This document shows, one piece after another, positions 11,399 to 30,825 of a stretch of 64,000 nt of DNA (position 1 is the stretch's first letter; every line of letters begins with the position of its first letter). This stretch comes from Bacillota bacterium. Its GTDB lineage: Bacteria; Bacillota; Bacilli; Alicyclobacillales; SLC66. Where the stretch lies: contig JAJZCW010000018.1 in assembly GCA_021828865.1 (NCBI GenBank), positions 1 through 64,000 of the forward strand, written 5' to 3'. The notes beneath the pieces are model-generated. The model was not told the DNA's origin and ran no database searches. It was given only the letters and a program-made list of their open reading frames with translations. The position numbers and the translations under genes are program-made.

Positions 11399-12403
11399 CT
11401 AGCCCCGGAAATGGTCAAATCCCCTTTGCTCCAAGGCTTCCCGCTTGCCTTCACGCATCACATCGATCCCTGGGTTTCCGTCTTCCACACGACCGATCAT
11501 CGTGACGCGTACCCCTACCGCTTCGAGGCGCGTGAGCAATTCTCCTGCTCCTCGCGACTTGACTGTGCCTACTATTTGATAATCTTCCCCGCCAAATAGA
11601 GCAAAATCAAGCGGATCGGCGCCAGCCATTCGTGCATAACGACGAAGCGATGGCAGAGTGGGGATTCTGTCTGCCTCTATGATCATTCGCACTTGACTAG
11701 CAGTCGCAATTTCATGCAACTCTGAAGCTAACCCGTCACTAATATCATCGGTAGAAGAACAGTCAGGGAGATTGGCCAGTACCTCTGCTGCGGATAATTG
11801 TGGCCTTGGACGCCGATGACGCATCGCCAGATCCCATTCGTCAACTGGTGACAGAAACACGGGATGTGATTGATTTTTATAATGCAAATAGGCCCCCGCA
11901 CCACCCAGGTCCCCCGTGACAAAGATCAGGTCACCAGGTTCTGCGCCACTACGCAGCAATGGCCGAGCTCCCAACAACTCCCCAAACACCGTAACAGAAA
12001 TCGCAAGTGTCAGCGGAGATTTGACAATATCGCCGCCCACGATGCGAACGCCAAACTCATCTCCTGCTTCCTTCAACCCCCGATAGATGGATTCACACGT
12101 CTCCACCAAAGTGGCTTCAGGCAATAACAGCGTGATGAGCGCATGGTACGGGTTCGCTCCCATGGCGATCACATCGCTCAGCGATGATGTCAAAGCCTTA
12201 TACCCTAAGGAAACATCATCAATTAAATCAGGCCGAAAGTGAACATTTTCCACCATCGCATCCGTGGTGACAACAATTGGACGATGATACTCGAGTACTG
12301 CCGCGTCATCGCCAATCCCCACTATCGTTCGCGAATCACCGTGTGGCAAAATTTGTCGCAGTCGGTCTATCAGTTCAAATTCACCCAAGTCTTTCACTAA
12401 CAA
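11399..12403 (-). CDS. thiL: Thiamine-monophosphate kinase
   Basis: ThiL phosphorylates thiamine monophosphate to the active pyrophosphate. Motifs include IVGIGDDAAVL (about residues 27-37), VVTTDAMVENVHF with a metal-binding Asp, SLSDVIAMGANP, IVGGDIV and FVTGDLGGAGA. The length (334) fits the PurM/ThiL fold. It is the first gene of the thiL-tsaE-tsaB-rimI-tsaD run, the same order as in Bacillus. Confidence 0.95.
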   Translation of the reverse strand: MLVKDLGEFELIDRLRQILPHGDSRTIVGIGDDAAVLEYHRPIVVTTDAMVENVHFRPDLIDDVSLGYKALTSSLSDVIAMGANPYHALITLLLPEATLVETCESIYRGLKEAGDEFGVRIVGGDIVKSPLTLAISVTVFGELLGARPLLRSGAEPGDLIFVTGDLGGAGAYLHYKNQSHPVFLSPVDEWDLAMRHRRPRPQLSAAEVLANLPDCSSTDDISDGLASELHEIATASQVRMIIEADRIPTLPSLRRYARMAGADPLDFALFGGEDYQIVGTVKSRGAGELLTRLEAVGVRVTMIGRVEDGNPGIDVMREGKREALEQRGFDHFRG

Positions 12404-24176: not shown

Positions 24177-25010
24177 ATGACCACTCTGGAAGAACTGATT
24201 CCATTTTTGCCTGCCATACAAAAAAGCTACGCAGAAGATACACATTTACTTTTGTTTGATCAACAAAAGGTGATAGCATCATTACCAGGTAAACAATTGA
24301 ACATTCCCATTTATGTGGAAGATAAACTCGAAGACTTAAATCAGACGGTCACTTATCAGTCTAAACTACAAAAAAAAACCACGCGCGATGAACGAGGACC
24401 TGAGCAATTTGGCATTTCCTATGTGGCAACGGCTACCCCGATATTCAAAGACGATAACCAGAACAGGGAGATCATCGGCTATTTGACCGCTGTCACCTCG
24501 AATCAAAATCTGCACCAATTGCGATCAGATTCACATGAACTGGCAGCGATGGTGGAAGAACTTAGTGCCACAACGGATGAAATTGCCCATGCCTCGGTCT
24601 CCATTGCAGAAGATTTAACTGTGCTAGCCACGTACTCTAACGAAATCGCACAAGACATCAACAATATTCACGAGGTTGTGAACTTCGTACAGGATATCGC
24701 GTCTCAGTCTAACTTGCTGGGACTAAACGCAGCTATAGAATCGGCTCGAGCAGGAGATGCCGGACGCGGGTTTGGCGTAGTGTCTGACGAAATTAGGAAA
24801 ATGGCCACGCAGAGCAAAGACTCTGCAGAAAAAATCCGCATGCGACTAGAGGCACTGGAGAATGCACTGATCAATCTGAACGATGCCGTCAAACGCGTCT
24901 CGCAAAATCAGGACCAACATTCCGCTAGTGTAGAGGAGCTTCGTTCCGTCTTTGAACACATTGCAAAGGTCGCTGACGATCTCGTCAAACGTTCCTCCGT
25001 TACTGAATAG
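24177..25010 (+). CDS. Soluble methyl-accepting-type chemoreceptor, YfmS-like
   Basis: A cytoplasmic receptor of 277 residues with no membrane segment. An N-terminal sensor part (about 1-115) is followed by a short four-helix signalling domain with the hairpin tip [34 protein letters not shown]. Size and layout match Bacillus YfmS. Start choice is uncertain: ATG 24177 is used, though TTG 24156 and ATG 24162 are in frame. Its last 11 bases overlap the end of the converging FTR-like gene. A paralogue lies at 44659. Confidence 0.85.
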
Positions 25011-25632
25011 TCACCATAAAAGCATCCTCAAATGGTTTAAATTCGGCGTTCAATTTTTTTAGTTTTGCAAACTGTAGGATATTGATGGCAGACTGTTCTC
25101 TTGCCACGATAACTTCAAGTGGCAATGAAGATACTTGGTTTAAGGCTTGCTTGATTTGATGAAGCGGATCAGGCACGTCCATTTGCCTGTTGTCACTTTT
25201 AGGCACATCACGGGTATCCAGTATATTTCCTACTAAATTTAAGGAAATTCTGTATTCCTTCATCAAGTCCTTCTCAGCGGCAACAAAGTCTGCATCTGTA
25301 AAATCTCCGCGTGCAAATAACTTACAATGACATGTCCCTGTTTTTGCAATATCCTCTTCCGCAAATGAGCAGGGACAAATCAACTTGCGATCTGTCTTTG
25401 CATCACCAGTCGCTTCAAAACACGGGCAAATTCTCGTGCCATACATCTCTTGATTTTCTGCGATCCATATTTTTAAATTCGTTAAATACATAGGATGCGG
25501 ATTGACGCGAAATCCTTTCCGTTCTGCGTATTTTTGGATCCATTGGTCCATTTTTTTAAGATCACTACGATATCTGAGATACCCCTTCATAAAATCTTTA
25601 TACATTTTCGCTGTAGTTTTCCATTTTGACAA
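25000..25632 (-). CDS. Ferredoxin-thioredoxin reductase catalytic-subunit-like protein with TusA-like tail
   Basis: The middle of the protein has the FTR beta-chain cysteine pattern CPC (69-71), CPC (86-88) and CHC (101-103), which in the family binds a [4Fe-4S] cluster next to a redox disulfide. The first 60 residues are a charged helical lead. Residues about 151-210 look like a TusA sulfur-carrier fold ([14 protein letters not shown], then [19 protein letters not shown]), but the catalytic CPxP cysteine is a valine. It lies 133 bases downstream of the formate dehydrogenase on the same strand, with a hairpin between. No partner FTR alpha chain is nearby. Confidence 0.75.
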
Positions 25633-25765: not shown

Positions 25766-27832
25766 TTAAATTCTTTCTAACCGAACCGCCGTATATTTAT
25801 AAGGTGAAACCCCTGATTTTGAATCAACAACATCATTGGTCAACGTGTTCGTGTTCACCTGTTCAGGAAAATGGAATGTCATAAACACATACCCTTCCAT
25901 CACCCGGTCAGTAATTTTCACAGGCACTTCCACACTGCCGCGTCGTGATGACACTTTGATCCGCGTACCATTTTCCAGTTGATACTTCGCGGCATCTGTC
26001 GGATTGATCTCCATATATTCTTCCTGATCTTTGACCTTCCCGCCTTCATATCGCGTCATGACCCCTGTGTTGTAAAATGCAAGACGTCGACCGGTGATGA
26101 GTACAAAGGGAAACTCCTCATCAGCAGGTTCGAGCGGCTCCTCATATTCCACTGGGGAAAATTTCGCGCGCATTCCCACGTTGTCAGAGTGCAGCCTCGT
26201 ATGAAGCACTTTTTCCGGAGGTTCCGTCAAACTGGGGCAAGGCCACTGCAGTTCATACTCTCTTTCCAACCGTTCGTATGACATGCCGTAATGAGACGGA
26301 GAGAGGGAACGTAGCTCATTCCAAACCTCTTCCGCAGATTGATAGTGCCAGTTCGCACCGAGATAATTGGCAATTTCCTGCAAGATCCAGAGGTCATCCT
26401 TAGCCTCCCCAGGTGCATTGACCATTTTGCGAACTCTTTGTATTCCACGTTCGCTGTTGGTAAATGTCCCATCCACTTCACCCCAGCCAGAAGCGGGTAA
26501 GACCACATCCGCGATTTCCGCGGTTTTGGTCATGAACAAATCCTGTACCACCAACATCTCAAGATTTTCAAATGCACTTCTGGAATGACCAGAATTGGCT
26601 TCAGATTGAATAGGATTTTCACCGATGACGAACATAAATTTGATACGGCCATCGCGCATCGCAGAAAACATGGCAGATTGATTCAACCCGTTCTTAGCAG
26701 GAATCTTACAGTTCCATACTGCTTCAAATTTCGCACGTGCGCCGTCGTCCTCTACATTGAAAAAGCCAGGCAACTTATTCGGGAGAGCTCCCATATCGCC
26801 GCCGCCCTGCACATTGTTTTGCCCACGAAGCGGCATCAAGCCACTTCCTGGCTTGCCCACTTTACCGGTCAACAGCGAGAGATTGATTAGTGCAAATACG
26901 TTGTCAGCACCATTGTGATGTTCGGTGATTCCCAACGTCCATGCAATTACCGCGCGGTCCACTGTCGCATATAATCTTGCCACTTCACGAATCTGATCCG
27001 CAGGAACTCCCGTGATGGTCTCCGCAAATTCAGGCGTGTATTTGGCTACCACTTCTTTATAACTCTCATAAAATTCAGTGGCATGTTCAATAAATTTCGC
27101 ATCATAAAGCTTTTCTTCGATAATCACATGACCAATCGCATTGGCCAGTGCGATATCGGCACCCACACGCACGGGAAGATAATGCGTGGCAAAATTCGCC
27201 ATCGGAAGTTTACGAGGATCCACCAGCACCATTTTGGCACCGTTTTTGATTCCGCGGCGAATATGATTGTAAATGATGGGGTGTGCTTCCTGGGTGTTCG
27301 ATCCCCAAACAATGATCAGATCAGTATTTTCAAAATCCTCATAGGAATTAGTATCTGCTCCACTTCCAAACACTGCCGTCAAACTGACGACGCTGGGAGC
27401 GTGTCAAGTACGGTTACAACTGTCGATATTGTTAGTTCCAATCACCTGGCGCATCAACTTCTGAGCAAGAAAGTTCAATTCATTGGTAGCCCTTGATGAA
27501 CTAAAGCATCCAAAAGCGTCCGCGCCGCTTGCGTCTTTCACTTTGCGTACGCCGTCAGCGATCACCTGCAGTGCTTCTTCCCAAGTAACTTTGACGAGTT
27601 GACCGTTTTTTCGCACCATTGGGTAAGTAAGTCGATCCTTGGACTGGGAATACGTCCAGGCTTGGCTTCCTTTCACACAGGTTTCGCCATGACTGACGGG
27701 TGAATTTTTATCGCCTACCACACTGACGATTCTCCCATCTTTAGCAGTCACAGAAAGTCCACATCCCGTTCCACAAAAACTGCATATGGTGGACTTGGTG
27801 ACTGTTTCAATCGTATCCATTTCGACTGCCAT
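25766..27832 (-). CDS. fdhF: Formate dehydrogenase alpha subunit, selenocysteine-containing (FdhF type)
   Basis: Molybdenum or tungsten bis-MGD enzyme oxidising formate to CO2. An in-frame TGA at 27404-27406 stands exactly where FdhF enzymes carry catalytic Sec or Cys: SCNRT-U-HAPSV, with Sec at residue 143 (140 in E. coli FdhF). Both sides are intact and homologous, giving 688 residues. The N-terminal [4Fe-4S] cysteines are C17, C20, C24 and C52. MGD-binding stretches such as PLRGQNNVQGGGDMGALP and the C-terminal ITDRVMEGYVFMTFHFPE are present. No twin-arginine signal, so cytoplasmic. ATG 27832 follows GGAGGA. A SECIS hairpin lies just past the UGA. Confidence 0.93.
27375..27406 (-). promoter_or_regulatory. 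Bacterial SECIS element with UGA codon
   Basis: On the minus strand the UGA (27406-27404) is followed after 12 bases by GTCGTC-AGTTT-GACGGC (27391-27375). This is a six-pair stem, including one G-U, with a five-base apical loop that has G at its second position. The loop starts 18 bases after the UGA, inside the range known for bacterial SECIS elements read by SelB, and the layout parallels E. coli fdhF. Confidence 0.8.
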
Positions 27833-27941: not shown

Positions 27942-30776
27942 TCATTCAAGCTCTCCCAATTTTGAGATTTGCCTGCCAAACATGCCATCGAGAGTGATGA
28001 CAAAGTCATGAAAAGCATTCAACATATTGTCGCGCAACTCATATAGGTATGGAATGCCATGAATGATGGCCGCCTCATTACCCTGTGCTTTTACCGCAAT
28101 GAGGTATCTTCCGTGTTCGTGGATTTCTTCATGGATTCGACGGACCGTCTCCATTTGTGGAATTTCCCCAAAACGGCTCTTTCCGACATGGTCATACCAT
28201 CTTCCAAAATGACAAGCATGCGGATCGAGTTCAGGCGGATTCATGCTGACGTCTTCAACATTTTGTAGAAAGTGAACCATTTGATCGACCCATTGACGAT
28301 GCTCAAGTGGCAATAAAAACAACTGGCTTAGGTACCTGGCCACGTTCATTTCACGAACCGTTTGCCACTCCTCGTATCCTTCATAACTCTGGATCCAGGT
28401 GGGAATGAAGTCAGGCGGCATTGGTCTTGCAATCAGATAGCCTTGCGCCAATTCGCATCCCAATTGGATCAGCGTTTTCCCCTGTTCAATCGTTTCGACG
28501 CCCTCTGCGATCACATCACACTGAAAAACCCTTGAAAGCTCAATGACTGCGCTAATAATGGCCAAATTCCCTTCGCTCATGCTCATATGTCGGACAAACG
28601 ACTGATCAATTTTCAAAATATCGAGCGGGAGATGGCTCAAATAAGTTAACGAAGAATACCCTGTTCCAAAGTCGTCAAGCGATACATGCACACCCAGTTC
28701 TCGCACCGCTTCGATAATTTTTTTGGCCGCCTGCAGGTCACCAAGCTCGTCCGTTTCAAGAATTTCCAATTCCAAATCACCTGGATTGACCCTCGGATGA
28801 CGTTGGAGGACACTTTTCAAATGATTAGGGAAATCGCCATATTTCAATCGTTTTGCCGAGATGTTGATACTCACTTTCAGATGAATGCCTTGTCGCTGCC
28901 AAGATTCAAGTTGGCGAATCGCTTCTTCTTTGACCCAATCATCAAGCAAAATCATAAAATCAGTATGTTGTAAATCTGGCAAAAAAGTCCCGGGAGGCAA
29001 AATACCTTTATCAGGGTGGTTCCAGCGGATTAATGCCTCAACGCCGTACACTTTATGCTTTGTCATTTCTACTTTTGGCTGATAATATAAGACAAATTCC
29101 CCGTTATTGATCGCCTGATGCATTCTGGCATAATCCACGGAGTTGTTTATTAACTGATCCTGTTCCGCATTGAAAATAGTATAATGGTTTTTCCCCGTGG
29201 CTTTAGATCGATACATGGCTTTATCCGCATTTCTAAGTAGTTCGTCGCCGTTAACCCCGTCCAATGGATAAAAAGTTACCCCCACACTGACAGCAGGATA
29301 AAAAACATGATCATTTTCCAAATATGGTTTGGATATTTCGTTCATCATATCAGCGATCAGGACGTGAAAGTCAGAAGGATTTTGCAGGTCATGAAATAAA
29401 ATCATGAACTCATCGCCACTCGGTCTTGAAACCGTGTCTGATTTTCGAATTCGCTCTTGGATGCGGTTGGAGAGCTCAATCAGCAGTCGGTCCCCTCGAT
29501 CATGACCATAATCCGCGTTAAATTGTTGAAAATCATCGACATCGAGGGAACAAACAGCAAGCAGTGTATGGTTGCGGTTGGCACGTTCGATCGCCACATT
29601 TAGGCGATCAAGAAAGAGAATTCGATTGGGGAGATGAGTGAGCGGATCGAAATAAGCAGATCGGTTGTCTTTCGCCCCTTCCAAACCTTCATCCATGACG
29701 GTGGAAAAGGTGGAGATGTATTGTTTGAACGGATGCCCATCGGTCGAAACCGCCGCAATGCTTAAAAACTCCTCAAAAATCTCCCCGTTTTTTTTCCGAT
29801 TAATAATCCTTCCCTTCCACTTTCCGCTCGTTTCCACCTCATCCCACATTTGCTGATAAAATGCCGAGTCATGATAGCCTGATTTAAGCAAATTGGTAGA
29901 TTGACCAATCACTTCATCGCGGTCATAACCTGTAATCCGCAAAAAAGCCTGGTTCACTTCAAGAAATTGGCCATTTTCATTTGTGATAAATACGCCTTCC
30001 TCCATATTGTCAAAGACGGCCGCCGTCAGTTGCAGTTGGTGTTCATAATTTTTCCGTGTCGTCACGTCTCGCTGCAACCCTACATAATGCGTCAATTCGC
30101 CAGCATCATTGTATAGCGGTGCAATCGTCAATTCATTCCAGAAAAGCGATCCGTCCTTGCGATAATTTCTCAGTTCAACAGTGCATCCCCGCTGTTCTTT
30201 AATGGCCAGGCGAATTTCGTCTATCCCTTCCTGATCGCGGTCATCGCCTTGTAAGAACCGACAATTTCTCCCCAATGACTCTTCTGGAGAATACCCCGTC
30301 AACTCATAAAATGCAGGATTGGCATAGATGATGCGCATTTCTTTATCATAATGATCGACGATGGTGACGCCATTAACCGTATACTCGACCGCCTGCTGGA
30401 ATAGTGAGAGGTACTCCTGCGCACGCTTCAGGAGGTCCACATCAATTAGCCAGACCTCATATGTATAACTGCCATCAGGAAGCCGTTCCACCACTTGCGC
30501 TTGCAACGACTTCCACACTCTTGGATTTGTTAAACCTTGAAAAAGAATATGTTGGTCAGTGACACGATTTATTTTTTTTAACTGATTGATGAGATCCAGA
30601 TAATCTGTAGGATGATAAAAAATGTCGGAAGGATTGAACGGATAGGAACCGGATTCATTCCTATTTTCAAGAATATCGAGAGATGCTCTCAGAAATTTGT
30701 TCATTCCCAACCATTCGTCCGTAGATTTCGCACGGAAATAGCAAAAGGGAATATTATCCTGCTCGTCTGTAAGCAC
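27942..30776 (-). CDS. LOV-PAS-GGDEF-EAL-CZB cyclic-di-GMP enzyme
   Basis: Probable blue-light-sensing diguanylate cyclase/phosphodiesterase, cytoplasmic, 944 residues. Domains: an N-terminal region (1-120); a LOV domain (about 120-240) with photoactive GRNCRFLQG (Cys172) and flavin ligands Asn204, Asn214 and Gln235; a second PAS (about 248-360); GGDEF (about 375-537) with SGDEF at the active site (453-457); EAL (about 550-800) with EALIRW and DDFGTGYSS; and a C-terminal CZB zinc domain with DPHACHFGRWY (Cys855). Cys-to-Asn spacing of 32 and 10 equals that of Bacillus YtvA. GTG 30776 has AGGGGGAGGGAG upstream; the frame is open to 30809. Confidence 0.93.
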   Translation of the reverse strand: MLTDEQDNIPFCYFRAKSTDEWLGMNKFLRASLDILENRNESGSYPFNPSDIFYHPTDYLDLINQLKKINRVTDQHILFQGLTNPRVWKSLQAQVVERLPDGSYTYEVWLIDVDLLKRAQEYLSLFQQAVEYTVNGVTIVDHYDKEMRIIYANPAFYELTGYSPEESLGRNCRFLQGDDRDQEGIDEIRLAIKEQRGCTVELRNYRKDGSLFWNELTIAPLYNDAGELTHYVGLQRDVTTRKNYEHQLQLTAAVFDNMEEGVFITNENGQFLEVNQAFLRITGYDRDEVIGQSTNLLKSGYHDSAFYQQMWDEVETSGKWKGRIINRKKNGEIFEEFLSIAAVSTDGHPFKQYISTFSTVMDEGLEGAKDNRSAYFDPLTHLPNRILFLDRLNVAIERANRNHTLLAVCSLDVDDFQQFNADYGHDRGDRLLIELSNRIQERIRKSDTVSRPSGDEFMILFHDLQNPSDFHVLIADMMNEISKPYLENDHVFYPAVSVGVTFYPLDGVNGDELLRNADKAMYRSKATGKNHYTIFNAEQDQLINNSVDYARMHQAINNGEFVLYYQPKVEMTKHKVYGVEALIRWNHPDKGILPPGTFLPDLQHTDFMILLDDWVKEEAIRQLESWQRQGIHLKVSINISAKRLKYGDFPNHLKSVLQRHPRVNPGDLELEILETDELGDLQAAKKIIEAVRELGVHVSLDDFGTGYSSLTYLSHLPLDILKIDQSFVRHMSMSEGNLAIISAVIELSRVFQCDVIAEGVETIEQGKTLIQLGCELAQGYLIARPMPPDFIPTWIQSYEGYEEWQTVREMNVARYLSQLFLLPLEHRQWVDQMVHFLQNVEDVSMNPPELDPHACHFGRWYDHVGKSRFGEIPQMETVRRIHEEIHEHGRYLIAVKAQGNEAAIIHGIPYLYELRDNMLNAFHDFVITLDGMFGRQISKLGELE

Positions 30777-30825
30777 AATCTCCCTCCCCCTATTACAATA
30801 TCTTCTCATTTTCCTATTTCCATTA

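Follow-up and report, generated by a model that had tools for sequence, protein, structure and literature searches.

Does a TGA inside a formate dehydrogenase (FDH) gene mark the end of the protein, or is it read as selenocysteine (Sec)? The question is raised by a gene on the minus strand of a 64,000-nucleotide stretch of DNA (the window) from a member of the Alicyclobacillales (Bacillota), for which a first-pass annotation had proposed the latter reading. The features that bear on it are as follows.

25766..27832, minus strand: formate dehydrogenase alpha subunit (fdhF/fdhA-type), 688 aa with U143
27404..27406, minus strand: in-frame UGA, predicted to be read as selenocysteine, residue 143, in the column of E. 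coli FdhF U140
27375..27391, minus strand: apical hairpin of a bacterial SECIS element, with a stem of 6 bp and the loop AGUUU, assigned from covariation and published bSECIS rules
25000..25632, minus strand: ferredoxin-thioredoxin-reductase beta-like protein (PF02943, 68.5 bits) in its Cys form, the C-terminus weakly YedF-like

The FDH frame runs on the minus strand from an ATG at 27832 to a TAA at 25766 and its sole interruption is the TGA at 27406-27404; the two frames described in the first-pass annotation do abut exactly there, forming a single reading frame, 27832-25766. Across the join, the translated protein matches the TIGR01591 equivalog over residues 15-684 (795.6 bits against a cut-off of 666.25), whilst PF04879 (Molybdop_Fe4S4), PF00384 (Molybdopterin) and PF01568 (Molydop_binding) all score above their cut-offs. 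The [4Fe-4S] Cys motif and the molybdopterin and dinucleotide-binding domains make up the full Pfam set of a molybdopterin oxidoreductase. E. coli FDH-H is among the PDB matches, the best of which is the FdhF of a hydrogen-dependent CO2 reductase (PDB 7qv7, aligned over residues 15-539 and 566-688). Unlike the window FDH, the 7qv7 FdhF chain has Cys in the Sec143 column, and no partner genes of a hydrogen-dependent CO2 reductase were recognised next to the window gene.

The residues flanking the UGA read NIDSCNRT-U-HAPSV. The proposed equivalence to Sec140 of FdhF, the formate dehydrogenase H of E. coli, holds: U143 aligns with U140 of the K-12 protein (MG1655 record), and the two genes share UGA-CAC at the homologous site. 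The UGA occupies the identical column in homologues from Bacilli, Acidobacteriota and Actinomycetota that are 96%, 69%, 68%, 66% and 51% identical to the window FDH, and non-UGA homologues have Cys there. An in-frame UGA stands at a conserved Sec/Cys position, one of the criteria for a UGA-encoded selenoprotein. We also listed TGA read-through frames in the window that keep 60 or more codons ahead of the TGA and 30 or more behind it. Among these 32 frames the scan yielded no further UGA-recoded frame, and a SECIS-type hairpin follows the TGA in FDH only (1/32).

The hairpin itself, GTCGTC-AGTTT-GACGGC, is as the first-pass annotation had described it, starting 12 nt past the UGA, with its loop at 18 nt and G as the second loop base. 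The hairpin (27391-27375) includes one G-U pair, and ViennaRNA adds an A-U closure that reduces the loop to 3 nt (-7.2 kcal/mol). Published rules for bacterial SECIS elements give a loop of 3-9 nt, a stem of 4-16 bp, a G in the first two loop positions and a distance of 16-37 nt from the UGA (PMC13188914), and the claimed fit to such rules is borne out by a loop of 5 (or 3) nt, a stem of 6 (or 7) bp, a G at position 2 (or 1) and a spacing of 18. The corresponding energy rule is an MFE of -7.5 kcal/mol or lower (PMC13188914); the 17 nt of the hairpin alone fold at -7.2 kcal/mol, the hairpins of relatives at -6.8 to -9.5 and segments of 40-57 nt at -12.4 to -16.6. Longer single-sequence folds are unremarkable, with z-scores of -0.4 to -1.5 that constitute weak evidence, and the optimum for an 81-nt fold of the UGA region is built from pairs other than the SECIS stem. 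Single-sequence folding of 40-81 nt segments is too weak to decide the matter.

That the hairpin goes beyond chance follows instead from covariation across homologues, which settles the question. Among 22 Sec homologues (21 distinct) the six stem pairs are formed in 126 of 126 cells, four of the six show compensatory changes on both sides, and the stem covariation score is 0.527, compared with 0.221 for shuffled alignments and no more than 0.257 once the partners are slid. Numbered from the U of the UGA, the loop bases G23, U24 and U26 never vary among the Sec homologues. Coding constraint was handled by redrawing synonymous codons under a fixed protein: an equally stable hairpin arose in 3.2% of recodings for the window FDH alone, and in 0.3-7% per gene when the homologues were included. 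In a 4 kb search Rfam gives SECIS_3 as its sole match, at 27351-27409; the match covers the whole model and keeps register with the UGA, yet its 22.7 bits lie far under the gathering threshold of 63. SECIS_3 represents one family of fdhA SECIS and does not define all bacterial SECIS.

The hairpin of E. coli fdhF shares this register and likewise has G23-U24 in its loop. Drawings of its positions 15-31 usually show an unpaired U; in the window hairpin no such bulged U is evident, the stem being six contiguous pairs. Closer to the window gene is the Sec-FDH of Alicyclobacillus ferrooxydans TC-34 (L027; 66% identity), with the same UGA and the same AGUUU loop. A Cys paralogue (L065, at G090:C11:206861-208879) keeps three of the six stem pairs and has no hairpin, and the genome that encodes it also carries a UGA copy of FDH (G090:C9). 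L065 is a natural Sec-to-Cys conversion in which the SECIS has been lost.

Decoding of the UGA would require the Sec machinery, and the first-pass annotation had inferred that the host encodes all of it. A search of the host genome, a draft of 3.08 Mb in 45 contigs and 94% complete, found selA, selB, selC and selD, all intact. The selA gene (TIGR00474, 600 bits) shares contig C2 with selC (C2:71315-71407; RF01852, 66.5 bits against a cut-off of 47), which ARAGORN calls as tRNA-SeC, tca, with a UCA anticodon. On two other contigs are selB (C45; TIGR00475, 388 bits), whose product has the SelB-specific C-terminal winged-helix domain SelB-wing_3, and selD (C43), itself encoding a UGA-coded Sec protein with its own hairpin. 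The fdhD gene is found on contig C18 (267 bits). Within the window, the ThiL at 11399-12403 gave a SelD-like score; being a thiamine-phosphate kinase, it was rejected as a SelD candidate.

How widespread is the arrangement? The view that a Sec system is uncommon in Bacilli proved too strong: Sec decoding is near-universal in the host family, where selA is present in 16 of 18 genomes (both exceptions are incomplete), and is found in about one-fifth of sampled Bacilli, with selB above cut-off in 84 of 400. The UGA form of FDH was seen in 20 of 400 sampled Bacilli, every one of them (20/20) with selB; the hypergeometric P of 4e-15 treats genomes as independent, which overstates the significance, and it assumes that one set of 400 genomes underlay both searches. 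Within the host family, the short FDH occurs in 4 of 18 genomes, each time with the UGA, whilst the remaining FDH matches are long Cys enzymes (frames of about 900-1050 codons) at 36-39% identity. A tree of 43 FDHs places the Sec forms on the side of E. coli FdhF, separate from these long enzymes, and parsimony requires three Sec/Cys changes. The UGA is therefore the rule of this FDH clade and not a mutation in a single genome.

These observations bear directly on the most obvious alternative, that a nonsense mutation (leaving a pseudogene) or a sequencing error has split an ordinary Cys formate dehydrogenase. A single base separates UGA from the Cys codons TGT and TGC and the host genome is a draft, but the same UGA recurs in other phyla and in independent genomes with identities as low as about 50%, the downstream hairpin covaries and the codons past the UGA stay open and conserved. 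The first-pass annotation had named two findings that would favour such a mutation, a genome lacking selA, selB, selC and selD, and close relatives with Cys codons and no hairpin; all four genes are in the host genome, and its close relatives retain both UGA and hairpin. Because the sel genes are intact and the relatives keep these two features, a nonsense mutation is excluded to the extent that sequence allows, and we regard mutation or error as barely credible. No better placed is decoding of the UGA without SelB as another amino acid, either as Trp under code 4/25 or as Cys through near-cognate misreading. An in-frame UGA alone does not tell the identity of the amino acid; however, UGA is an ordinary stop for the other ORFs of the window, FDH is the only one of the 32 listed frames in which the TGA joins the halves of one protein ahead of a SECIS hairpin, the host has both SelB and a tRNA-Sec with a UCA anticodon, and the residue-143 column is Cys in non-UGA homologues, making this reading extremely improbable. 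Termination at the UGA followed by re-initiation to give two separate proteins, for which a TTG at 27382 offers a possible start, is hardly tenable, since the join falls within the catalytic Molybdopterin domain (PF00384, residues 67-489), a protein from the second frame would be missing both the Fe4S4 domain and the active-site residue, and Cys homologues are single chains.

We conclude that the window FDH is almost certainly a genuine selenoprotein gene, with SelB-dependent decoding of the UGA and Sec143 as a predicted metal ligand of formate dehydrogenase, because the UGA, the covarying SECIS, selA/B/C/D, fdhD and the conservation of the site are all seen in sequence. By analogy with its known family, Sec insertion, a Mo or W centre and the oxidation of formate, or else the reduction of CO2, may be attributed to the enzyme. 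When the ribosome arrives at UGA143, SelB-GTP carrying Sec-tRNA(Sec) would bind the hairpin immediately 3' of the codon, and selenocysteine would be inserted instead of termination taking place; Sec143 would then ligate the Mo/W-bis-pyranopterin centre of the catalytic subunit, as in FdhF. Among bacterial selenoproteins FDH alpha is the most widespread (PMC5029168), and the window gene, correctly read in the first-pass annotation, is an ordinary addition to the family of bacterial selenoproteins that is best known. It offers a clean, checkable example of stop-codon recoding and a caution for gene callers, which the first-pass annotation had expected to split the gene in two; E. coli fdhF is a single CDS in RefSeq.

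For the host family the near-universality of Sec decoding contrasts with the presence of Sec-FDH in just 4/18 genomes. UGA-SelD is found in 17 of the 18 genomes, all 17 SelD-bearing genomes having the UGA form. It has been suggested that SelD alone can maintain the Sec-decoding trait (Zhang et al. 2006, PMC1794560), and the combination of near-ubiquitous UGA-SelD with infrequent Sec-FDH fits this idea. Candidate reasons for the trait in genomes without Sec-FDH are that Sec decoding is kept for SelD alone, or that there are unseen selenoproteins.

A divergent version of SelD was also observed (L101-L104, in G016, G014, G015 and G011), in which the UGA is followed by ACK or AAK, not GCK, and each copy has a GGUCC-type hairpin after the UGA. 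Some host-family genomes carry both versions, whilst G014 and G015 showed the AAK version only.

Unlike for E. coli FdhF, no formate-hydrogen lyase partner was found beside the window gene, and Bacilli Sec-FDHs have no conserved partner gene beside them, their neighbours being unrelated (FBPase, response regulator, MFS transporter). FDH copies of Acidobacteriota and Actinomycetota adjoin NuoEF-like genes: in the NAD-dependent FDH operons of Bryobacterales and Acidimicrobiales (L028, L030; 51% identity, with UGA and a GGUCU loop in the SECIS) the FDH is followed by NuoEF-like diaphorase genes, whereas the Bacilli gene is solitary. In the host genus the electron partner may come from a gene located elsewhere, or a generic carrier of the ferredoxin type may take its place.

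The FtrB-like gene at 25000-25632 lies 133 nt downstream of FDH and, within the host family, is found in the host genus only; A. ferrooxydans TC-34 has no such neighbour among the ORFs listed downstream. Its product has a six-Cys CPC/CPC/CHC pattern and a weak C-terminal YedF match (E=8e-4). The NCBIfam model closest to it describes a double-selenoprotein family, and it scores 65 bits against NF041072, under the cut-off of 160; the gene contains no UGA and encodes a Cys form. Adjacency alone makes a functional tie with FDH possible. That the solitary Sec-FDH of the host genus is tied to this FTR-beta-like/YedF-like neighbour in an undescribed branch of formate-driven thiol/disulfide (or sulfur-relay) reduction is a proposal we consider very unlikely. 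Just upstream of FDH, at 27942-30809 on the minus strand, is a gene for a large protein of PAS-PAS-GGDEF-EAL architecture that carries a chemoreceptor zinc-binding (CZB) domain at its C-terminus.
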